Below are positions 26,179-39,084 of a stretch of 64,000 nucleotides of DNA, one piece after another. The position numbers and the translations under genes were made by a program. The stretch spans positions 620,001 through 684,000 of the forward strand of contig NZ_JQMV01000003.1 of the NCBI RefSeq assembly GCF_000744885.1, read 5' to 3'. Under the pieces are notes generated by a model, which saw nothing but the letters and a program-made list of their open reading frames with translations, ran no database searches and had not been told where the DNA came from. The first letter of the stretch is position 1. Every line of letters begins with the position of its first letter. This DNA comes from Thermus amyloliquefaciens (GTDB taxonomy: Bacteria; Deinococcota; Deinococci; Deinococcales; Thermaceae).

Positions 26179-27923
26179 CGCAGCTGGAAGCGGTTTGCGG
26201 TGCTTTCCTGCATCTCGGCGATGGCCCGGAAGCCTTCCAGGGCCTTCCGCCGTTCCCCGGGGGATAGGCTGGACCAAAGCACCCGGTTGCTCACCTCCCC
26301 TCCCTGCTCCAAGGCCTTTAGCTGGTGCTTCAGGCGCAGGGAGAAGAAGAAGCGGAAGGCCTCCTCGAGGCGTTCCGCCCCCTCGAGGCTTAGGGTGCCC
26401 CCTTCCGCCGCCACCTTGAGCCTCTCCACCGTGCCCTTGGCCAGGCTTCCCGCCATGAGGGCATACAGCCGGGCCAGGGCCACGATGGGGGCGATGGCGT
26501 GCCGCTTCAGGTCCACAAAACCCTCCTCGGTGCGCACCCGGCCGAAGAGGCCCAGGGGGGGACGGAAGGCCAGGCTGGCCTGGGCCAGGTGGTAGAGGAA
26601 GACCCCTTTCCGGCTTCCCTCCAGGATGGTCTCCTCCAAAGGCCTTAGGGAAAGGCTACCCGCCGCCTTGCGCAGGTCAAAGAAGATCTGGGTTTCCAGG
26701 AGGGCCTGGGGTTCGGGGGCCTCCATCCAGCGGCGGAAGGTATCCTGCCATTCCCCAAGGGGCTTGCGCCAGCGGGTGGCCATGTACCCTCCCTTGCACT
26801 CGGGGATGCCCGCCCGGAGGAGTCCTCCCACCACGTGCTCCGCCAGGGCCTGGAAGTAAGCTTCGTGGCCGTCACCTTCCAGAACCAAGGCGTTGTCCTG
26901 GTCGGTGAGAAGGGCCTGCTCCCGCCTGCCCTCCGAACCGAAGACCAGGAAGGCGTAGGCCATGGGAGGGGGCCCTTGGGTGGTTTCCGCCTCCCGCACC
27001 AGGCGGCGGATGAGGGCGTCGTTCAGGGAGGCCACCACCCGGCCGATCTCCACCCCGCCCAGGCCCCGTTGGAAGAGGGCCTCCACCAAGGAGGCCACCT
27101 CGAGGCTATACCGCTCCAGCTCCAGCCTCTCGATCCGCCTTAGGAGGAGGAGGGGGCTTTGCGCCCGGCTCAGGAGGAGGTCGGTGTGGGTGACCACCCC
27201 CACCACCCGGTCCCCTTCCGTGAGGGGGAGGTGGTGGATCCCCCGCTCCACCATGGCGGCCAGGGCCTCATAGATGGGGGTGTCCGCGGGAAGGGAGAAA
27301 AGGGGGGTGGTCATCACCGCCCCCACGGGGGTGGAAGGGGGGCGGCCCTCCGCCAGGAGCCGGTTCCTTAGGTCCCGGTCCGTGAGGATCCCCAGGGGCT
27401 CCCCCTCCACCAGCAGGCTGGAGATGCCCTCTTGGCGCATCCTTCGGGCCGCCTCCTCCACCGTGGCCGAGGGGGGGATGAAGGCGGGTGGGCGGTGCAC
27501 CAGGTTTCTCACCGGGGCGAAGAGGGAGGGTTCCGGGGCCACCCTAAGCCGCACCCGTTCCACCAGGCCCTGGCCGAAAAAGCGGGCCGCCTCCGGGTAG
27601 GCCAAAAGCCTCTGGAAGGCCTCCTTGGGGAAGGCCAGGACCCTGATGGGGGTTTTGGCCACCACGCTTAAGGAAGGGGGCTCCCCGGAGAGGAGGGAGG
27701 GGAAGCCGAAAAACTCCCCCGCCTCCAGGGTCCCCACCTCCTCTTCCCCATCCAGAAGAGCCACCTGACCTTCCAGGAGGAGGTAGAGGTTTTGCGCAGG
27801 CGCCCCCCCCTGTTCCAAAAGCAAGGAACCTGGGGGATAGACCTCCTCCAGGGCCTCGCGGAGGAGGGCCTCCCGTTCCCTCTCAGGAAGGGTGCTTAGG
27901 GGTGGAGTGTTCCGGGGGTCCAT
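26175..27923 (-). CDS. cNMP-binding/CBS/DUF294 nucleotidyltransferase-like protein
   Basis: 582 residues: a cyclic-nucleotide-binding-like domain (about 10-125, GSLLLEQGG, EFFGFPSLLSG), a CBS pair (about 140-255, GILTDRDLRN, VVGVVTHTDLL), a DUF294 nucleotidyltransferase domain (about 280-420, FGSEGRREQALLTDQDNAL) and a C-terminal helical domain (about 430-580). GSEGRxEQxLxTDQDNA matches GlnD-like active sites. Such proteins neighbour acetate permeases and DnaQ-like exonucleases in proteobacteria. Expected to modify or sense in response to a nucleotide; target unknown. Confidence 0.92.
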   Translation of the reverse strand: MDPRNTPPLSTLPEREREALLREALEEVYPPGSLLLEQGGAPAQNLYLLLEGQVALLDGEEEVGTLEAGEFFGFPSLLSGEPPSLSVVAKTPIRVLAFPKEAFQRLLAYPEAARFFGQGLVERVRLRVAPEPSLFAPVRNLVHRPPAFIPPSATVEEAARRMRQEGISSLLVEGEPLGILTDRDLRNRLLAEGRPPSTPVGAVMTTPLFSLPADTPIYEALAAMVERGIHHLPLTEGDRVVGVVTHTDLLLSRAQSPLLLLRRIERLELERYSLEVASLVEALFQRGLGGVEIGRVVASLNDALIRRLVREAETTQGPPPMAYAFLVFGSEGRREQALLTDQDNALVLEGDGHEAYFQALAEHVVGGLLRAGIPECKGGYMATRWRKPLGEWQDTFRRWMEAPEPQALLETQIFFDLRKAAGSLSLRPLEETILEGSRKGVFLYHLAQASLAFRPPLGLFGRVRTEEGFVDLKRHAIAPIVALARLYALMAGSLAKGTVERLKVAAEGGTLSLEGAERLEEAFRFFFSLRLKHQLKALEQGGEVSNRVLWSSLSPGERRKALEGFRAIAEMQESTANRFQLR

Positions 27924-28248
27924 AGTTGGGGGTTAGCCAAGCCACCAGGGGTATGAGGTAGGGCAGGGCCACCTGGGCTTGGAGCAGGATTAAAAGGCCT
28001 ATCCCCAGCATGAAGGCCGGGGGTAGAAGGATGAAAAGCCGCACCACGCGACCAATGCCCGGAGGCGGGAGGGGCCAAAGCCGGTGGTAAAGGATACCCA
28101 ACCCCATCCCCAAGGCGGTTCCCAGGGCGATCTGGAAAAGCACGCTGGGGGTGGGGAAGGGCAAGCCCAAAAGGTAGTGGCCGCTCAGGTAGAAGCCGAA
28201 GAGGACCACCAGGCTTCCCAGGTAAAACCTCAGGTAGAGGAGGGGCAT
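27883..28248 (-). CDS. Membrane protein of unknown function
   Basis: 121 residues with about four hydrophobic segments (10-28, 33-53, 68-88, 90-106) and a charged tail. No family recognised. Its 3' end overlaps the DUF294 start by 41 bp, more than usual here, so the DUF294 start could be internal or its translation strictly coupled. It follows the symporter terminator-like hairpin. Confidence 0.65.
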   Translation of the reverse strand: MPLLYLRFYLGSLVVLFGFYLSGHYLLGLPFPTPSVLFQIALGTALGMGLGILYHRLWPLPPPGIGRVVRLFILLPPAFMLGIGLLILLQAQVALPYLIPLVAWLTPNYGPPEHSTPKHPS

Positions 28249-28285: not shown

Positions 28286-30028
28286 TCAGTGTTCCGCCGC
28301 TTGGCCTGCTCCTTTCGGGATGCGGATCTCCTCCACCAGGTGCTGGATGTGCTCTGGTGGCGGAGGCGTGGCCCGGGAGACCAGGTAAGCCACGATGAAG
28401 TTCAGGATCATGCCGATGACGCCCACGCCCTCGGCGCTGATGCCAAAGAGGTTGGGGATCACCGGGGCTGGGGCCCCGAAGATCTGGGGCGCCCGCATCA
28501 TCCCGATCATCACCGCGGTGAAGATGAGGCCTACCAGGATGCCGGCGATGGCCCCCTCGCGGTTCATGCGCTTGTCAAAGATCCCGAGGAGGATGGCGGG
28601 AAAGAGGCTTGCCGCCGCCAGACCGAAGGCAAAGGCCACCACCTGGGCCACGAAGCCAGGCGGGTTCACCCCGAAGTAGCCGGCCAGGATCACCGCCAGG
28701 AGGATCACGATGCGCCCGGCCAGGAGGCGCTGGGCCTCGGTGGCGTTCGGGCGGAAGATGCGGTAGTAGATGTCGTGGGAGATGGCGCTGGACATGGCCA
28801 AAAGAAGCCCCGCGGCCGTGGAGAGGGCCGCAGCCAGACCGCCCGCCGCCACCAAGGCGATCACGAAGGGGGAGAGCCGGGCCACCTCCGGGGTGGAAAG
28901 GACGATGATGTCGTTGTCCAAGTGGACCTCGTTCTTGCTCTTCTCATCGGGGGTGTTGAAGTCCGGCCTGCCGCCCTTTAAGGCGAAGGCCCGGCCAGGG
29001 GCGAAGGTGACCTTGCCGTCCCCGTCCTTGTCCACGAAGGCCAGGAGCTTGGTCTTTTCCCACTTGGCCACCCAGTCGATCTGGCGCACCTCCTCCAGGG
29101 TCTTGCCGTTCAGGGTGGAGATGAGGTTGTAGCGGGCGAAGGCCGCCACTGCCGGGGCGGTGGTGTAGAGGAGGGCGATGAAGAGGAGAGCCCAGCCGGC
29201 GGAGTAACGGGCGGAGCGCACGTCCGGCACGGTGTAGAAGCGGATGATCACGTGGGGAAGCCCAGCGGTGCCCACCATCAGGGCCAGGGTGATGGCCAGG
29301 ATGTCGATCATGGGCTTGCCCTGGAAGGGCTTGGTGTACTCGGTGAAGCCCAGGTCCACCTGGATCTGGTTGAGGCGGCTCACCAGGTCGCTGAAGGTGA
29401 AGGCCAGCTGGGGAATGGGGTTCCCGGTGAGTACGTTGGCGATGGCGATGGCGGGGATCAGGTAGGCGATGATCAGCACCGAATACTGGGCCACCTGGGT
29501 CCAGGTGATGCCCTTCATGCCTCCCAGAACGGCGAAAAAGGCCACCACGGCCACCCCGATGATCACCCCGGTGGCGATGTCCACCTGCAGGAAGCGGCTG
29601 AAGACGATGCCCACGCCCCGCATCTGCCCAGCCACGTAGGTGAGGGAGATGAAGATGGTGGCGATGGCCGCCACCGCCCGGGCGGTGTGGGAGTAGTAGC
29701 GGTCCCCGATGAAGTCCGGCACCGTGTACTTGCCGTACTTGCGCAGGTAGGGGGCCAGGAGGAGGGCCAGGAGGACGTACCCCCCGGTCCAGCCCATGAG
29801 GTAGACCGCACCGTCGTAGCCCATGGAGGAGATGAGGCCCGCCATGGAGATGAAGCTGGCCGCGGACATCCAGTCGGCGGCGGTGGCGGCTCCGTTGGCG
29901 ATGGCGGGTACCCCGCGGCCCGCCACGTAGAACCCTGCGGTTTCCCGCACCCTCGAGGCGTAGCCGATGTAAATGTAGGCGGCAAAGGTCAGGCCTACAA
30001 TGATATAGGTCCAGGTTTCAACGCTCAT
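28286..30028 (-). CDS. Sodium:solute symporter large subunit (acetate-type)
   Basis: 580-residue SLC5/SSS transporter of the VC_2705-type (large subunit with a small DUF4212 partner), related to ActP. About 13 helices; the core motif GRGVPAIANGAATAADWMSA and the later GGLAAALSTAAGLLLAMSSA are present. A soluble insert near residues 310-375 includes FVDKDGDGKVTF, an EF-hand-like calcium loop. With acetyl-CoA synthetases upstream, acetate or another short acid is the likely substrate (inference). The small subunit gene is 9 bases upstream. Confidence 0.93.
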   Translation of the reverse strand: MSVETWTYIIVGLTFAAYIYIGYASRVRETAGFYVAGRGVPAIANGAATAADWMSAASFISMAGLISSMGYDGAVYLMGWTGGYVLLALLLAPYLRKYGKYTVPDFIGDRYYSHTARAVAAIATIFISLTYVAGQMRGVGIVFSRFLQVDIATGVIIGVAVVAFFAVLGGMKGITWTQVAQYSVLIIAYLIPAIAIANVLTGNPIPQLAFTFSDLVSRLNQIQVDLGFTEYTKPFQGKPMIDILAITLALMVGTAGLPHVIIRFYTVPDVRSARYSAGWALLFIALLYTTAPAVAAFARYNLISTLNGKTLEEVRQIDWVAKWEKTKLLAFVDKDGDGKVTFAPGRAFALKGGRPDFNTPDEKSKNEVHLDNDIIVLSTPEVARLSPFVIALVAAGGLAAALSTAAGLLLAMSSAISHDIYYRIFRPNATEAQRLLAGRIVILLAVILAGYFGVNPPGFVAQVVAFAFGLAAASLFPAILLGIFDKRMNREGAIAGILVGLIFTAVMIGMMRAPQIFGAPAPVIPNLFGISAEGVGVIGMILNFIVAYLVSRATPPPPEHIQHLVEEIRIPKGAGQAAEH

Positions 30029-30037
30029 CTTCCACCC

Positions 30038-30286
30038 CTACTCATGCACCCCGTAGTGCCGGTCCAGCTGATCCATCTTCCAGGCGTAGTAGAAGATGAG
30101 GATCACGAAGACGTAGATGCTTCCCTGCTGCGCGAACCAGAAACCCAGGGGAAGCCCTCCCAGGCGGATGCCGTTCAGGGGCTCCACCAGGAGGATGCCG
30201 AAGACGTACGAAACCAGCGCCCAGATGAGGAGCAGGTTTCGTATGAGCGAGGTGTTGGCCTTCCAGTACTCCTCTGTTTTGTGCAT
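30038..30286 (-). CDS. Sodium:solute symporter small subunit (DUF4212)
   Basis: 82 residues, two membrane helices (about 16-36 and 52-70) with the family ending FYYAWKMDQLDRHYGVHE. It always accompanies VC_2705-type symporters and is thought to help assembly or activity. It is the first gene after the strong promoter at 30355-30383 and has a GGAGGGAG ribosome site. Confidence 0.9.
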   Translation of the reverse strand: MHKTEEYWKANTSLIRNLLLIWALVSYVFGILLVEPLNGIRLGGLPLGFWFAQQGSIYVFVILIFYYAWKMDQLDRHYGVHE

Positions 30287-30354: not shown

Positions 30355-30383
30355 ATCTTAGGAAAGGATGAGGGGGGTGTCAA
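30355..30383 (-). promoter_or_regulatory. Promoter of symporter/sensor operon
   Basis: -35 TTGACA (30378-30383), 17-bp spacer, -10 TAAGAT (30355-30360), giving a leader of about 63 bases. Upstream TTTCTTGACA matches the -35 context of the acs and iclR-acs promoters. The leader holds GGGAAGC and GCTTCCC in inverted order, with GGAAGCGCTT as in the LacI operator. Confidence 0.75.
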
Positions 30384-30434
30384 GAAACCTTGGCTTTGCG
30401 GGCATGCGAAAAAGGTGGGGTTTCCCCACGCAAA

Positions 30435-30472: not shown

Positions 30473-32356
30473 CTACTCCTCGAGGGTGGAAAGGTCCCCG
30501 GGGTCGCGGCCCAGCTCCTTGGCCTTCAAGAGCCGCCTGAGGATCTTGCCGGAGCGGGTCTTGGGGAGCTTGTCCAGGAAAACCACCTCCGAAGGGGTGG
30601 CGATGGGCCCCAGTTCCCGACGGACATGGGCCACCAGGTTTTCCTTGAGCTCCTCCGAGGGAGCCTGGCCCAGGCGGAGGACCACAAAGGCCTTGATGGC
30701 CTCCCCCTTGAGGGGGTCGGGCACCCCGATCACCGCCGCCTCGGCCACCGCAGGGTGGGACACCAAGGCGCTTTCCACATCGGCGGTGCCGATGCGGTGG
30801 CCCGCCACGTTCAAGACGTCGTCCGCCCGGCCCAGGACGCTGAAGTAACCCTCCTCGTCCTTGCTGGCCACATCGCCCGCCACGTAGACGTTCCCCGGCA
30901 CCTCCCGCCAGTACTGGAGGTAGCGGTCGTGGTTGCCCCAGACGGTGCGCATCATGTGGGGGAAGGGGCGCTTGAGCACCAGGAGCCCTCCTTGGCCCGG
31001 GGCTACCGGCTTCCCCTCCTCGTCCACCACCTCCGCCTCCACCCCCGGCAGGGCCACCCCGGCGAAACCGGGCTTGGCCGGGAGCACGAGGGGGGTGCCC
31101 AGGGTGGGGCCCCCCAGCTCCGTCTGCCACCAGTTGTCGGCCACGAAGCCCCGCCTGCCCCCCTCCACCAGGTGCTGGTAGGCCCAGCGCAGGGCCTCGG
31201 GGTTTAGGGGTTCCCCGGCCACGGCGATGAGGCGCAAGGAGGAGAGGTCGTACTTCCCGGGCCACTCGGGGCCGTACTTCATGAAAAGGCGCACCGCGGT
31301 GGGGGCGGTGAACATCACGTTCACCCGGTGGCGTTCCACCGCTTGCCAGAAGGCCCCGGGGTCGGGGTAGTCGGGGGCGCCCTCCCGGAGGACGCTGGTC
31401 ACCCCTTCCAGGAGGGGGGCGTAGACGATGTAGGAGTGGCCCACGATCCAGCCGATGTCGCTGGTGGCCCAGTAGACGTCGTCGTCCTTCACGTCAAAGA
31501 AGGTGCGGAGGTGGTAGGTGGTGCCCACCATGTACCCCCCGTGCACGTGCACCACGCCCTTGGGCTTTCCCGTGGAGCCCGAGGTGTAGAGGATGAAGAG
31601 GGGATGCTCCGCGTCCACCATCTCCGCCCGGGCCTCCGGGGGGTGGCTCCAGAGGAGCTCCTGGAAGTCGTGGTGGCCTTCGGGGAGCTCCGTCCGGATG
31701 GCCCTTTGGAACCAGACCACCTGGAGGGGGAGGTCCTTGATGGCCTCCTCCACGATGGAGCGGAGGTCCACCCCCTTGCCCCTCCGGTAGCTCACGTCCC
31801 CGGCGATGAGGAGTTTGGCCCCCGCGTCCAGGATGCGCTCGCGCAAGGCGGAAACCCCAAGCCCCGCGTAGACCACGCTGTGGATGGCTCCCAGGTAGGC
31901 GGTGGCCAGCATGGCCAGCACCCCCTCGAGGGTCAGGGGCATGTAGATGACCACCCGGTCCCCCTTCGCCACCCCCAGGCGCTTAAGCCCCGTGGCCAGG
32001 CGGCGCACCCGGTCCAGGAGTTCCCCATAGGTGAGCTTCTCCTCCCGCCCGTCCTCGGAGAGGTAGAGGAGGGCCACCTTGTTCCTGAGGCCCCTTTCCA
32101 CGTTCCGTTCCAGGGCGTTGTAGACGGCGTTGGTGGTGCCCCCCAAGAACCAGCGGTGCTCGGGAAGGTTCCACTCCAGCACCCTTTCAAAGGGCTTCTC
32201 CCAATAGAACCTCTTGGCCCACGCCCCCCAGAACCCCTCGGGGTCCTCGAGGCTTTGCCGGTAGACCTCGGAAAAGTTCTGGAGATTTGCCTTGCGGCGC
32301 ACCTCCTCTGGGGCCCAAAGCCGTTCCTCTGCCTTAAGAAGCTTTTCCACCGCCAT
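30473..32356 (-). CDS. Acetyl/propionyl-CoA synthetase-like enzyme
   Basis: 627-residue AMP-forming acyl-CoA synthetase of the ACS group. P-loop [11 protein letters not shown], acyl-pocket motif NWWQTELGG, hinge region [13 protein letters not shown] and the catalytic, acetylatable Lys604 in RSGKILRR are present. It keeps the WWQTE block that favours small acyl chains; acetate, propionate or similar is likely. The ATG is inside the end of the upstream fusion gene (23-bp overlap) with a GGAGGAGG site. It is distinct from the canonical acs nearby. Confidence 0.9.
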   Translation of the reverse strand: MAVEKLLKAEERLWAPEEVRRKANLQNFSEVYRQSLEDPEGFWGAWAKRFYWEKPFERVLEWNLPEHRWFLGGTTNAVYNALERNVERGLRNKVALLYLSEDGREEKLTYGELLDRVRRLATGLKRLGVAKGDRVVIYMPLTLEGVLAMLATAYLGAIHSVVYAGLGVSALRERILDAGAKLLIAGDVSYRRGKGVDLRSIVEEAIKDLPLQVVWFQRAIRTELPEGHHDFQELLWSHPPEARAEMVDAEHPLFILYTSGSTGKPKGVVHVHGGYMVGTTYHLRTFFDVKDDDVYWATSDIGWIVGHSYIVYAPLLEGVTSVLREGAPDYPDPGAFWQAVERHRVNVMFTAPTAVRLFMKYGPEWPGKYDLSSLRLIAVAGEPLNPEALRWAYQHLVEGGRRGFVADNWWQTELGGPTLGTPLVLPAKPGFAGVALPGVEAEVVDEEGKPVAPGQGGLLVLKRPFPHMMRTVWGNHDRYLQYWREVPGNVYVAGDVASKDEEGYFSVLGRADDVLNVAGHRIGTADVESALVSHPAVAEAAVIGVPDPLKGEAIKAFVVLRLGQAPSEELKENLVAHVRRELGPIATPSEVVFLDKLPKTRSGKILRRLLKAKELGRDPGDLSTLEE

Positions 32357-34865
32357 ACTCCTCCTCCAAGGCGGAAACATCCCCGGGGTCTAGGCCCAGG
32401 AGTTCCGCCTTCAATAGCCGCCTTAGGATCTTGCCGCTTCGGGTGCGGGGTAGGCGCTCCACGAAGACGATCCGGGGTGGGGGCACCGGTCCCAGGTGCC
32501 GCAGGAGGTGGGCCTTGATCTTCTCCGCCAGTAGGGCCTTGAGCTCCTCGGGCACCTCCTTCCTGGGGACGGCAAAGACCACGATCTCCTCCCCCTCCTC
32601 CCCAGGGATGCCAATGGCGGCGGCCTCCGCCACCTGGGGGTGGGTGAGGGCGGCCGCCTCCACCTCGGCGGTGCCCAGCCGGGCCTCCCCTACCTTAATG
32701 ACCTCGTCCGTGCGTCCCAGGATGCGGAAATAGCCCTCCTCGTCCCAGGTGGCGAGGTCCCCCGTCCAGTACAGCCCTCCCCGCCAGGGGCTTTCCCCCC
32801 CGAGGAGGTCCACCATGTGGGCGGGCCCCGCCCTGAGGAGGACCAGGTGGCCCTTGGCCCCTGGGGGCAGGACCCGGCTCTCGGCGTCCACCACCCGGGC
32901 CTCCACCCCGGGCATGGGGACGCCCACAAAGCCGGGCTTGGCGGGAAGGGTGAGGGGCGTGGCCAGGGCGGGAGTCCCCAGCTCCGTCTGCCACCAGTTG
33001 TCCAGGGGCCAGGCCAGGTTCTCCCGGGTCCAGCGCCACACCTCCGGGGCTAAGGCCTCGCCCACGCTTCCCACCAGGCGCAAGGAGGTGGGCCGGGCTT
33101 CCCCGTGGCGGCGGAGGGTGCGGAGCACCGTGGGGGAGGTGAGGAGCACGTCCACCCCAAGGCGCCCCAGCCTTTCGTAAAAGGCCGCGGGGCTGGGGTG
33201 GTCCGGCCGGTCCTCCACCAGGAGGCTGGTACCCCCCAGGAAGAGGGGGGCATAGAGGCCGAAGGAGTGCCCCACCACCCAGAAGAGGTCGGCGGTGGTG
33301 TGGAAGACCTCCCCCGGCTTCAGGTCAAAGAGGTACCGGAGGGCCCAGCTCACCCCCACCATGTACCCCCCGTGGCCGTGGACCACCCCCTTGGGCCTTC
33401 CCGTGGAGCCCGAGGTGTGGAGGATGAAGAGGGGGTGCTGGGCGGGAACGGGGACGGCCTCCGCGGGCTTCCCCTCCGAGGCCCTTTCCAGGAACTCCGT
33501 GGTGCCCCGGGTGTGCCAGAGCACGGGCAGGTCAAGGCCCGCAAGGGCTGCCTCCACCACCGGCCTCAAGGGGATGAGCTGGCCCCGGCGGAAGTAACCG
33601 TCGGCGGCGATCAACAGGCGGGCTTGGCTTTGCCAAAGCCTTTCCCTAAGGGCTTCCGGACCTAGGCCCACGGGTAGGGCCACGTGGACCGCCCCTATCC
33701 GGGCCAAGGCCAGGAGGCTTAGGGCCGCCTCCACCCCGGTGGGCAGGTAGAGGGCCACCCGGTCCCCAGGCCTTACCCCCAGGCCCAGGAGCACCCCGGC
33801 CAGGCGGGCGGAGAGGTCGCGCAGTTCCCGGTAGGTCCATTTGGCAACCTCCCCCTCCCCGTCCAGGGTGAGGAGGGCCACCTGCTGGGCCCTTTCGGGC
33901 AGGTGGCGGTCCAGGGCGTTGAGGGCGGCGTTGGTGCGCCCTCCCGCAAACCAGGTGCGGCTTTCCGGATCAAAAGCCCTTTGCCAGGGGGTTTCCCAAT
34001 GGAACTCCCTGGCGAAGCCGCCAAAAAAGGCCTCGGGGTCCTCGAGGCTCGCCCGGTGGGCCTCGGGGTAATCCCTGAGGTTGGCCCTTTCCCGCAAGGG
34101 GGGAGGGGGCGTGAGCACCTCCACCCTCAGGTTGGCCTCCGGGGGCGGGGGCAGGGAGGGGGGCTCTGGCGGCTTGAGGTACGGGGAAACCTGGGCCACC
34201 TCGGAAAGGGAGCGGGCCAGGCGGCTGAAGGCAAAGGGGAAGCGCCGGGCGGGAACCACCACCCCTAAGGCCCCCAGAAGCTTGCCCTCCGGGTCAAAAA
34301 GCGGGGCCGCCAGGGCGGAAAGCCCCGGGGCGTACTCCTCCATTTCCACCGCCAGGCCGGACTCCCGGATGCGGGTGAGCTCCGCCTCGAGGGCCTGGGG
34401 GTCCGTGAGGGTGTAGGGGGTTTTGGGGACCAGGGGAGGCAGGGGGAGGGCCCCGTAGGCCAGGAGCACCTTGCCCAGGGCCAGGGCGTGGACCTCCTTC
34501 GGCAGGGCATCGCCCAGGGGGTGGGGCTGGCCCTGCCGCCCCCGGGTTTTCAGCCGGATCCCTTCCGGGGTCAGAAGGGCCAGGTAGCACCGCTCCCGGG
34601 TGCGGAGGTAAAGTTCCTCCAAGGCCTCCTCCAGGGGCGTGGTCTCCAGCCGGAGGGGCTTGGCCTGGCCCAGGCGGTACCCCCTTTCCGTCTTCACGGC
34701 GAAGCCCTCCTCCGCCAGGCTGTTCAGCAGGGCGTAGGCGGTGGAGAGGCTCTTGCCCAGGACGCGGGCCACCTCCTTCACCTCCACCCCTTCCGGGTGC
34801 TCGGCCAGGTAGGCCAGGATGCGCAAGGCCGCTTGGACCGTGGAGAGGCTTCTCTTCCTGGCCAT
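32334..34865 (-). CDS. IclR regulator fused to acetyl-CoA synthetase-like enzyme
   Basis: 843 residues in one uninterrupted frame. Residues 1-65 are an IclR winged-helix (TVQAALRILAYLAEHPEGVE, KSLSTAYALLNSLAEEGF). Residues about 70-230 are the IclR effector domain (HALALGKVLLAYG, SGLAVEMEEYAPGLSALAAP). A Pro-rich linker lies at 230-260. Residues about 260-843 are an ACS with TSGSTGRPKG near 490, NWWQTELG, a WTGD-type hinge and Lys812 in RSGKILRR, so catalysis looks intact. It may be a DNA-binding enzyme that couples acyl-CoA formation to transcription of the divergent acs (inference). The -10 is 8 bases before the ATG. Confidence 0.93.
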   Translation of the reverse strand: MARKRSLSTVQAALRILAYLAEHPEGVEVKEVARVLGKSLSTAYALLNSLAEEGFAVKTERGYRLGQAKPLRLETTPLEEALEELYLRTRERCYLALLTPEGIRLKTRGRQGQPHPLGDALPKEVHALALGKVLLAYGALPLPPLVPKTPYTLTDPQALEAELTRIRESGLAVEMEEYAPGLSALAAPLFDPEGKLLGALGVVVPARRFPFAFSRLARSLSEVAQVSPYLKPPEPPSLPPPPEANLRVEVLTPPPPLRERANLRDYPEAHRASLEDPEAFFGGFAREFHWETPWQRAFDPESRTWFAGGRTNAALNALDRHLPERAQQVALLTLDGEGEVAKWTYRELRDLSARLAGVLLGLGVRPGDRVALYLPTGVEAALSLLALARIGAVHVALPVGLGPEALRERLWQSQARLLIAADGYFRRGQLIPLRPVVEAALAGLDLPVLWHTRGTTEFLERASEGKPAEAVPVPAQHPLFILHTSGSTGRPKGVVHGHGGYMVGVSWALRYLFDLKPGEVFHTTADLFWVVGHSFGLYAPLFLGGTSLLVEDRPDHPSPAAFYERLGRLGVDVLLTSPTVLRTLRRHGEARPTSLRLVGSVGEALAPEVWRWTRENLAWPLDNWWQTELGTPALATPLTLPAKPGFVGVPMPGVEARVVDAESRVLPPGAKGHLVLLRAGPAHMVDLLGGESPWRGGLYWTGDLATWDEEGYFRILGRTDEVIKVGEARLGTAEVEAAALTHPQVAEAAAIGIPGEEGEEIVVFAVPRKEVPEELKALLAEKIKAHLLRHLGPVPPPRIVFVERLPRTRSGKILRRLLKAELLGLDPGDVSALEEEYGGGKAS

Positions 34866-34873
34866 TTGCGTCC

Positions 34874-34902
34874 ATGTTCTTTTGCTAGGGCCCTCATGTC
34901 AA
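34874..34902 (-). promoter_or_regulatory. Promoter of iclR-acs fusion gene
   Basis: -35 TTGACA (34897-34902), 17-bp spacer, weak -10 GAACAT (34874-34879), 8 bases before the ATG. Confidence 0.6.
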
Positions 34903-34947
34903 GAAAAGAGGGGTTTGGTACATGGTGAAAAACCCCCCTTTTCTTGA
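34899..34947. promoter_or_regulatory. Inverted-repeat operator between acs and iclR-acs
   Basis: Two 18-bp arms (34899-34916 and 34930-34947) match at 17 of 18 positions as an inverted repeat, TCAAGAAAAG(A/G)GGGGTTT, separated by 13 bp. The outer ends overlap the -35 boxes of both divergent promoters. Candidate binding site for the IclR domain. Confidence 0.75.
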
Positions 34948-34972
34948 CCCCATCCCGGGAGGGGCCTATCCT
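34944..34972 (+). promoter_or_regulatory. Promoter of acs
   Basis: -35 TTGACC (34944-34949), 17-bp spacer, -10 TATCCT (34967-34972). A good AAAGGAGG ribosome site precedes the ATG. Confidence 0.75.
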
Positions 34973-34992: not shown

Positions 34993-36939
34993 ATGGACCG
35001 GATTGAAGGCGTTCTCAAGGAGGAGCGGGTCTTCTATCCCAGCGAAGCCTTCCGCCAGCAGGCCCACATCAAGAGCGAGGAGGAGTACCAGCGCCTGTAC
35101 GAGGAAAGCCTAAAGGACCCGGAGGGCTTCTGGGGACGGGTGGCCTCCGAGCTCCACTGGTTCCATCCCTGGCAGAAGGTCTTGGAGGGGGACCTGCCCC
35201 ACCCCAAGTGGTTCGTGGGGGGCAGGACCAACCTCGCCTACAACGCCCTGGACCGCCACGTGGCCACCTGGCGCCGCAACAAGGCGGCCCTCATCTGGGA
35301 GGGGGAACCGGGGGAGGAGAGGGTCCTCACCTACCACGACCTCTGGCGGGAGGTGCAGAAGTTTGCCAACGTTCTGAAGCGCCTGGGGGTCAAGAAGGGA
35401 GACCGGGTCACCATCTACCTGCCCATGATCCCCGAGGCGGCCATCGCCATGCTGGCCTGCACCCGCATCGGGGCCATCCACTCCGTGGTCTTCGGCGGTT
35501 TCTCCAGCGGGGCCCTGGCCGAGCGCATCCGGGACGCGGAGGCCAAGGTGCTCATCACCGCGGACGGGGGCTACCGCCGCGGGCAGGTGGTGCCCCTGAA
35601 GCAAAACGCGGACGAGGCCCTGCGGGAGGTCTCCAGCGTGGAGCACGTGGTGGTGGTGCGCCGCACCGGGGAGGAGGTGCCCTGGACCCCGGGCCGGGAC
35701 CACTGGTGGCACGAGCTCATGGAGGCGGCCTCCGACCGCTGCGAGGCGGAGCCCATGGAGGCGGAGGAGCCCCTTTTCATCCTTTACACCTCTGGCTCCA
35801 CGGGGAAGCCCAAGGGGGTCCTGCACACCCTGGGCGGCTACATGACCTACGTCTACCTCACCACCAAGCTGGTCTTTGACCTGAAGGACGAGGATGTGTA
35901 CTGGTGCACCGCGGACGTGGGCTGGATCACCGGCCACTCCTACGTGGTCTACGGGCCCCTTTTGAACGGGGCCACCACGGTGATGTACGAGGGGGCCCCC
36001 AACTGGCCCGAGCCTGACCGCTTCTGGCAGATCGTGGACAAGTACGGGGTGAACATCCTCTATACCGCTCCCACCGCCATCCGGGCCTTTATGAAGTGGG
36101 GGGAGGGCTGGCCCCTGAAGCACCGGCTGGACTCCTTGCGCCTCCTTGGCACCGTGGGGGAGCCCATCAACCCCGAGGCCTGGCTTTGGTACTACCAGGT
36201 GATCGGCAAGGGGCGGTGCCCCATCGTGGACACCTGGTGGCAGACGGAGACCGGGGGCATCATGATCACCACCCTGCCCGGGGCCCACCCCATGAAGCCG
36301 GGGCATGCGGGCAAACCCTTCTTTGGGGTGAAGCCGGAGATCCTGGACGCGGAGCACAAGCCCGTGGAGAATCCGGATGAGGGTGGTCACCTTTGCATCA
36401 CCCGTCCCTGGCCCAGCATGCTCCGCACCGTCTGGGGGGACCCTGACCGCTTCCTGCAACAGTACTTCAGCCAGCATCCCGGCAACTACTTCACCGGGGA
36501 TGGGGCCAGGCGGGATAAGGACGGGTACTACCTCATCCTGGGCCGGGTGGACGACGTCTTGAACGTGGCCGGGCACCGGCTGGGCACCATGGAGATTGAG
36601 TCCGCCTTGGTGTCCCATCCCGCGGTGGCCGAGGCGGCGGTGGTGGGCCGCCCCGATCCCTTGAAGGGGGAGGCCATCGTGGCCTTCGTGACCCTCAAGG
36701 AGGGCCATGCGCCTTCTGAGTCCCTGCGGGATGAGATCAAGGCCCACGTGGCCAAGGTGATCGGTCCCATCGCCCGGCCCGACGAGGTGCGCTTCACGGA
36801 TGCCCTGCCCAAGACCCGCTCCGGCAAGATCATGCGCCGCCTCCTGCGGCAGATCGCCGCCGGGGAGAAGGAGATCAAGGGGGATACCTCCACCCTCGAG
36901 GACCGGTCGGTGGTGGAGCGCCTCAAGGAAGGGGCCTGA
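34993..36939 (+). CDS. acs: Acetyl-CoA synthetase
   Basis: 648 residues, the canonical length. Makes acetyl-CoA from acetate, ATP and CoA through acetyl-AMP. N-terminal ACS domain, [12 protein letters not shown]-loop (near 263), [10 protein letters not shown] acetate-pocket motif, [27 protein letters not shown] hinge and Lys612 in RSGKIMRR, the residue acetylated in bacterial Acs. Divergent from the IclR-ACS fusion and ended by a strong bidirectional hairpin. Confidence 0.96.
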
Positions 36940-37539: not shown

Positions 37540-39084
37540 TCACCTCCCAGGTTGGTACTCCCCCCACTCCTCCCTCAAGACCCCACAGACCTCCCCCAAG
37601 GTGGCCCGGCGGCGGAAGGCCTCGAGGACGTAGGGGAAGAGGTTCTCCTCCCCCCTGGCGGCCTGGCGCAACCTTTCCAGGCCCACCCGCACGCTTTCCC
37701 CGTCCCGCTTGGCCTTGAACTCCGCCAGTTCCCGCTTGCGCCTTTCGTGGAGCTCGGGGTCGATGCGCTGCACCGGGGTGGGCTCGTTGAGGGGGCTTTG
37801 GGGGTCGGCGAAGCGGTTCACCCCCACGATGATGCGCTTCCCCTCCTCCACCTCCTTCTGGAACTGCCAAGCGGATTCCTCGAGGGCCCGCTGGAAATAC
37901 CCCGCCTCCACCGCGGCCACCGCCCCCCCCAGGGCGTCGATCTCCCGGATGAGCCTTTCCGCCTCCCGTTCCAGCTCCTCCGTGAGGTGCTCCACGTAGA
38001 AGCTTCCCCCCAGGGGGTCCACCGCCCGGGTCACCCCGCTCTCGTAGGCCAGGATCTGCTGGGTGCGGAGGGCGAGAAGGGCGCTTTTCTCCGTGGGGAG
38101 GCCCAGGGCCTCGTCGTAGGCATTGGTGTGGAGGCTCTGGGTGCCCCCCAGCACCGCCGCCAGGGCCTGGTAGGCGGTGCGCACCACGTTGTTCAAGGGT
38201 TCCTGGGCGGTGAGGGTGGAGCCTCCCGTTTGCGTGTGGAAGCGGAGCATCCAGCTCTTGGGGTCCTTGGCCCCGAACTCCTCCCGCATGATGCGGGCCC
38301 AAAGCCTTCTGGCGGCGCGGAACTTGGCGGCCTCCTCAAAGATATCCCCGTGGGCGGCGAAGAAGAAGGAGAGCCTGGGGGCGAACTCGTCCACCTCTAG
38401 GCCCCGCTCCAGGGCGGCCCGCACGTAGGCCTTGCCGTCCGCCAGGGTGAAGGCGATCTCCTGGGCGGCGGTGGAGCCCGCCTCGCGGATGTGGTAGCCG
38501 GAGATGGAGATGGTGTTCCACCTGGGCACGTGGCGGGCGCAGAACTCAAAGATGTCGGTCACCAGGCGCATGGAGGGCCCTGGAGGGTAGATGTAGGTGC
38601 CCCGGGCGAAGTACTCCTTGAGGATGTCGTTTTGCACGGTGCCGGAGACCTTGTCCCAGGAAACCCCCTGGGCCTCCGCCACCAGGAGGTAGAGGGCCAG
38701 GAGCATCATGGCGGGGGCGTTGATGGTCATGCTGGTGGAAACCCGGTCCAAGGGGATGCCCTCGAAAAGCTTTTGCATGTCCTCCAGGGTGGCGATGGAC
38801 ACCCCCACCCGGCCCACCTCCCCCACGCTCATGGGGTGGTCGGGATCCAGGCCCAGCTGGGTGGGCAGGTCAAAGGCCACGCTTAGGCCCGTCTGGCCCT
38901 GGGCCAGGAGGTATCGGTAGCGGGCGTTGGACTCCTCCGCGGTGGAGAAGCCCGCATACTGGCGCATGGTCCAGAGCCTGTCCAGGTACATCCGGGGGTA
39001 GATGCCCCGGGTAAAGGGATACTCCCCAGGGCGGCCCAGCTTTTCCCGGTAACCTTCGGGCAGGGATTCAAAGAGGCCTTCCAT
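37540..39084 (-). CDS. Methylmalonyl-CoA mutase, catalytic large-domain subunit
   Basis: 514 residues covering only the TIM-barrel substrate domain; the C-terminal cobalamin-binding domain is absent, so a separate small B12 subunit must exist elsewhere. Motifs: [44 protein letters not shown] and [16 protein letters not shown]. It interconverts methylmalonyl- and succinyl-CoA, which would let propionyl-CoA enter the TCA cycle, fitting the acyl-CoA synthetases nearby (inference). A 45-residue membrane ORF is 9 bases upstream. Confidence 0.92.

Follow-up and report, generated by a model that had tools for sequence, protein, structure and literature searches.

In Thermus amyloliquefaciens, the genes acs and iclR-acs are transcribed away from each other, and a near-perfect inverted repeat lies between them. 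This arrangement raises the questions of what the repeat consists of, which protein recognises it, and which genes it controls. The DNA analysed, referred to here as the window, comprises 64,000 nt (NZ_JQMV01000003.1, positions 620,001 to 684,000, forward strand). Unless a contig is named, coordinates are counted within this window.

Gene content of the locus

The gene acs (34993-36939, plus strand) encodes a canonical full-length acetate-CoA ligase, which scores 1020.7 bits against TIGR02188 (cut-off 724.95). The divergent gene iclR-acs (32334-34865, minus strand) encodes P0001, a protein of 843 aa identified by its Pfam domains as a fusion of an IclR-type regulator with an acetyl-CoA synthetase. 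Its 3' end is overlapped by acs3 (30473-32380, minus strand), the gene of a second acetate-CoA ligase (728.8 bits against the same cut-off). After acs3, on the same strand and under a promoter of their own, follow the genes for an 82-aa symporter small subunit (30038-30286; TIGR03647, 119.6 bits) and for a sodium/solute symporter of the VC_2705 family (28286-30028; TIGR03648, 820.8 bits).

Two further genes lie nearby. Downstream of the symporter, a 121-aa protein without a family match is encoded at 27883-28248 (minus strand), and in G038 and G048 similar open reading frames come after the symporter gene. Downstream of acs, on the opposite strand, lies a gene resembling that of the methylmalonyl-CoA mutase large subunit (37540-39084, minus strand).

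Inverted repeat and divergent promoters

The repeat spans 34898-34948, with arms at 34898-34916 and 34930-34948, of which 18 of 19 pairs are complementary, and a spacer of 13 nt. It is the single inverted repeat in the 64-kb window with at least 18 of 19 matching pairs and a spacer of 3 to 20 nt; in first-order Markov copies of the window, a mean of 0.03 such repeats is expected. The first-pass annotation had described a near-perfect repeat over both -35 boxes, and such a repeat is indeed present, the outer end of each arm sitting inside a -35 box. On the acs side, this is TTGACC (34944-34949, plus strand), followed after a spacer of 17 by the -10 box TATCCT (34967-34972, plus strand). CTTGAC is kept in the aligned relatives, except for two genomes of genus g2 that have CTTGCA, and CTATCCT is conserved across most Thermus.

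On the iclR-acs side, the -35 box is TTGACA (34897-34902, minus strand), seen on the plus strand as GTCAAG and conserved in 47 loci. The probable -10 box, GAACAT (34874-34879, minus strand), is weak and was assigned by eye, and an alignment of the relatives' intergenic regions shows its position conserved as CAT(A/C)TT on the plus strand. Judged by the position of this promoter and the start site inferred from it, the iclR-acs transcript would be nearly leaderless.

A four-box operator conserved in the Thermaceae

The element that is conserved among relatives is not the repeat as such. It reads AAA-N7-TTT-N5-AT-N6-AAA-N7-TTT, is about 39 bp long, and is centred in the 13-bp "loop" of the repeat. 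In the window, this operator occupies 34904-34942, with AAA at 34904-34906, TTT at 34914-34916, the central AT at 34922-34923 (centre 34923), AAA at 34930-34932 and TTT at 34940-34942. Its outer boxes abut both -35 boxes, and its centre lies midway between the divergent promoters. The 51 bp from GTC to GAC that make up the repeat thus consist of the operator and both -35 ends.

In a gap-free alignment of 24 Thermus and 19 other Thermaceae, the four boxes vary little or not at all. Conservation falls on TTTCTTGAC on both sides, on TTT/AAA at 7-9 bp from the centre, and on the central AT. In the genera other than Thermus, TAA takes the place of AAA as the outermost box on one side. The GTC...GAC distance is 51 bp at 43 of 47 aligned Thermaceae loci and 52-53 bp at the other four. 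The G/C-rich 7-bp middle of the arm, on the other hand, drifts: complementarity between the arms is 2.93/7 within the same genome and 2.53/7 between mismatched genomes. Arm identity is 12-19/19 in Thermus and 9-14/19 in the other genera, and of the full 18-bp arm only the two ends are kept in relatives. The expectation that the repeat would be conserved beside homologous fusions therefore holds for the four boxes and for the 51-53 bp geometry, but not for the arm as a whole. In T. amyloliquefaciens, the repeat is the sum of two -35 ends, two inner boxes, and a chance-like middle.

This composition bears on the motif. The arm TCAAGAAAAG(A/G)GGGGTTT had been proposed as the recognised sequence and as the query for a motif search, a proposal that its drifting middle does not support; the motif to use instead is that of the four boxes. 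As a regulon probe, the arm motif returned ten additional near-exact matches in the genome and was rejected. TCAAGAAAAGGGGGGTTC recurs at ten places in G000:C3 (e.g., G000:C3:35562-35579 and G000:C3:36544-36561). The six copies read are all internal to a single near-identical repeated sequence, which is probably a transposase gene.

The symporter promoter and other operator sites

The symporter operon has the promoter TTGACA-17-TAAGAT (30355-30383, minus strand; TAAGAT at 30360-30355), at which TTTCTTGACA recurs (30378-30387, minus strand). The first-pass annotation had seen a partial match here. It is in fact a complete second operator copy with TTTCTTGAC (30379-30423, minus strand), which fits the four-box pattern without a mismatch and has the same spacing as the divergent acs/iclR-acs operator. 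When 22 distinct symporter promoters are aligned, they share AAA at -19 to -17, TTT at -9 to -7, AT at -1/0, AAA at 7 to 9 and TTTCTTGAC at 17 to 25, followed mostly by TAAGAT. None of the 22 has a -35 box on the far side of the operator, so the outer AAA box on that side belongs to the operator and not to a promoter. No other single observation argues as strongly as this one for a protein site made up of the four boxes.

Within its own genome, the 45-nt pattern with up to three mismatches occurs at only two sites, which serve three promoters, in agreement with the small regulon, symporter included, that had been suggested. A shorter pattern adds one weak match beside another IclR-type gene. 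This match, with 3 mismatches to the four boxes, is located at G000:C3:475472-475506, just 5' of the IclR-type gene at 475566-476255.

In other genomes, unlinked sites belong to genes of the same kind. The exact or near-exact ones of G037, G038 and G048 are immediately followed by a small subunit and symporter, as is a weaker one in G011. Other symporter promoters of Meiothermus and Calidithermus have the core boxes and a degenerate -35 box. The G035 site lies in front of a transporter of another type, whose best models are ActP and MctC, both below their cut-offs. Outside the Thermaceae, weak matches (G073, G110 and others) occur near the level of a reversed-pattern control, and in the two neighbourhoods read there was neither acs nor a symporter nearby.

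The IclR-Acs fusion as candidate binder

The fusion comprises HTH_IclR (residues 12-58), IclR_C (82-210), ACAS_N (266-317), AMP-binding (325-676) and AMP-binding_C (734-812). Its membership of the IclR family is clear from HTH_IclR (45.6 bits, cut-off 22) and IclR_C (62.7 bits, cut-off 24), and it aligns to 1mkm over residues 7-210 and to TtgV over residues 8-209. With a mean pLDDT of 54.8, the AlphaFold model of this protein was too poor for use. The region GKSLS.AYALL.SL of the HTH is kept in all eight fusions aligned. In a scan reaching close relatives only, the fused IclR half was found elsewhere in Thermus, Meiothermus and Calidithermus only.

Of 50 Thermaceae genomes, 48 encode the fusion or recognisable parts of it, and G006 and G012 do not. 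Beyond the Thermaceae, one genome of the Deinococcota, G058, which belongs to another family, encodes a fusion, and there the operator lies between the fusion gene and acs. In the fusion-less G006 and G012, a pattern search found no four-box site; G012 retains the acs promoter, CTTGACC...TATGCT, without the boxes. As initially proposed, acs and iclR-acs thus have one candidate site in common, which accompanies the fusion across the family and is absent from the genomes without it. This co-absence is supporting and not decisive, because the two genomes are of one genus, so that fewer than two independent events may be involved, and because both also lack the VC_2705 symporter. In G012, a different transporter adjoins acs3.

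The co-occurrence of operator and fusion, the divergent position of the genes, and the conserved HTH region make the fusion the natural candidate. Since the Thermaceae genomes without the fusion are also without the operator, the fusion very probably is the binder of the four-box site. A description of the fusion or of the operator was not found in the open-access papers searched.

The operator is of a style known for this family. DNA binding by IclR proteins involves dimers or tetramers. The motifs described for them have two or three TTYC/GRAA-type boxes, with the consensus sequences GKTYCRYW3-4RYGRAMC and TGRAACAN1-2TGTTYCA (PMC8222616). The alternating GAAA/TTT(C/G) boxes of the operator are akin to the GRAA/TTYC motifs (PMC8222616), but their spacing, N7/N10-11/N7, differs from the published consensus, the inner spacing being 2-3 bp longer than in group 1 and the outer 1-2 bp longer than in group 2. 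The fusion shares an IclR HTH, an effector domain and a divergent gene arrangement with TtgV and others of the family (2XRN/2XRO; PcaU, PobR), and its multi-box operator would suit a tetramer, as with TtgV-type regulators. Unlike these, it has a carboxy-terminal acetyl-CoA synthetase domain.

The enzyme half of the fusion

In a motif comparison with solved Acs structures and 28 aligned fusions, the Acs domain order of the fusion is complete, and the P-loop, WWQTE, GD, the hinge region and the catalytic Lys are kept. The fusion nevertheless reaches just 470.7 bits against the AcsA equivalog TIGR02188 (cut-off 724.95). In domain order and motifs, it matches Acs of Salmonella enterica, from which it differs at the glycine of the A8 motif (Gly524 of the S. 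enterica enzyme, a number derived from the alignment) and in the FGG region. The glycine is replaced by Glu or Asp in 28 of the 28 fusions first aligned, in the present fusion by Glu727 (codon at 32685-32687, minus strand), and VFGGF has become LPVGL or similar. The A8 glycine has a role in the CoA step of acetyl-CoA synthetases; a paper naming this role was not found in the open literature.

Fusions that were read later also mostly have Glu or Asp, with Gly in G001 and G003 only, so an altered A8 motif is not required in every lineage. These two fusions (L162 in G001, L143 in G003) combine the canonical A8 motif with an acs3-like carboxy-terminal half. Their similarity switches near residues 480-540, and acs3 is absent beside them, which is consistent with chimeras formed by exchange between tandem copies. 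A general tie between a canonical A8 motif and the absence of acs3 was considered and is contradicted by G002, G035 and G058, whose fusions have Glu or Asp and no adjoining acs3.

The retained adenylation motifs, the lost glycine, and the score far below the ligase cut-off suggest a sensory role for the enzyme half, with acetyl-adenylate bound or formed by it. A sensor that adenylates without making acetyl-CoA is a reasonable hypothesis from these residues. A fuller scheme is less likely than not: the Acs domain would still adenylate acetate but no longer transfer it to CoA, enzyme-bound acetyl-AMP or its absence would be the signal that places the IclR tetramer on the four boxes, the free tandem copy acs3 would supply the catalysis, and in G001 and G003 an exchange between the two copies would have given the regulator a canonical enzyme end again, the separate copy being no longer found there.

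Two known regulators invite comparison. BirA is a bifunctional biotin ligase and repressor, in which an HTH is combined with an adenylate-forming enzyme that controls the genes for its own substrate. By analogy, the fusion joins an HTH to an adenylate-forming enzyme fold and is a candidate for controlling genes of its own substrate, although the HTH and ligase folds of the two proteins differ. E. coli IclR, the acetate operon repressor, is free-standing and targets the glyoxylate bypass. It shares with the fusion its family and an acetate theme, and the effector domains are weakly similar in sequence (2o99, 1td5), whereas the sites found here are only at acs, acs3 and transporter promoters.

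Alternative explanations and the sign of control

Binding by the fusion is a prediction from sequence, its IclR half could have other targets, and a second IclR-type gene exists elsewhere in the genome. These points would allow for a different regulator, of acetate or of energy metabolism, as the binder, with the fusion merely its neighbour and target. Such a regulator is improbable, given that site and fusion disappear together in G006 and G012 and appear together in G058, that the strong sites of the genome are only at these acetate genes, and that the fused HTH is conserved together with the operator. It is far less probable again that the element is a pair of extended -35 elements whose symmetry is incidental. 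TTTCTTGAC does cover many of the best-conserved columns, but the inner TTT/AAA boxes are conserved about as well as the -35, the symporter operator has its outer AAA at -18 though no promoter faces that way, and G012 keeps the acs promoter and not the boxes. A hairpin in RNA or DNA (terminator, attenuator or cruciform) or a mobile-element end, which the near-perfect repeat and the arm near-copies at ten other places might recall, is the least credible reading. The element lies upstream of both promoters, the arm middles show no co-variation, no Rfam family matched, and the near-copies read sit inside one repeated sequence and not at paired ends. Paired arms were found nowhere else in the 64-kb window, the repeat does not qualify as an insertion-sequence end, and a search of a plasmid collection gave no match.

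The preferred reading is that the shared operator is bound by the adjoining fusion and controls acs, iclR-acs-acs3 and the symporter operon, which is likely from the sequence. The fusion would bind the four boxes, probably as a dimer of dimers, and would in this way control acs together with its own operon (iclR-acs and acs3), while the second, identical site would extend control to the acetate-type symporter operon. With less certainty, the enzyme half may sense acetate, either by binding it with ATP or by forming acetyl-AMP, and the signal may then pass to the IclR half. As to the sign of control, the operator centre lies at about -56 from the inferred start sites, and an equal distance to three or more promoters leans slightly towards activation. 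The strong -35 boxes lean towards repression. That the fusion is a repressor, not an activator, and covers both -35 boxes as long as no acetate is sensed has somewhat less than an even chance. It is favoured by operator boxes that touch the -35 and by near-consensus -35 boxes with 17-bp spacers at acs and the symporter, whereas the weak -10 box of iclR-acs speaks against it, and the identical -35 distance at the divergent, symporter and G035 promoters exceeds what simple occlusion needs.

Significance

The four boxes form a genuine regulatory element that occurs across the family and belongs to a known general type, and the fused regulator that accompanies them is unusual. They delimit a small acetate regulon in a family of bacteria that serves as a model of thermophily, and its regulator carries the relevant enzyme fold built in. 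A dedicated acetate regulon of the IclR type is of a known kind; the enzyme-fused regulator sets this one apart. Should the enzyme half prove to be a sensor, the fusion would show an adenylate-forming enzyme that has independently become a gene switch, and it would offer a ready-made thermostable acetate-responsive part.
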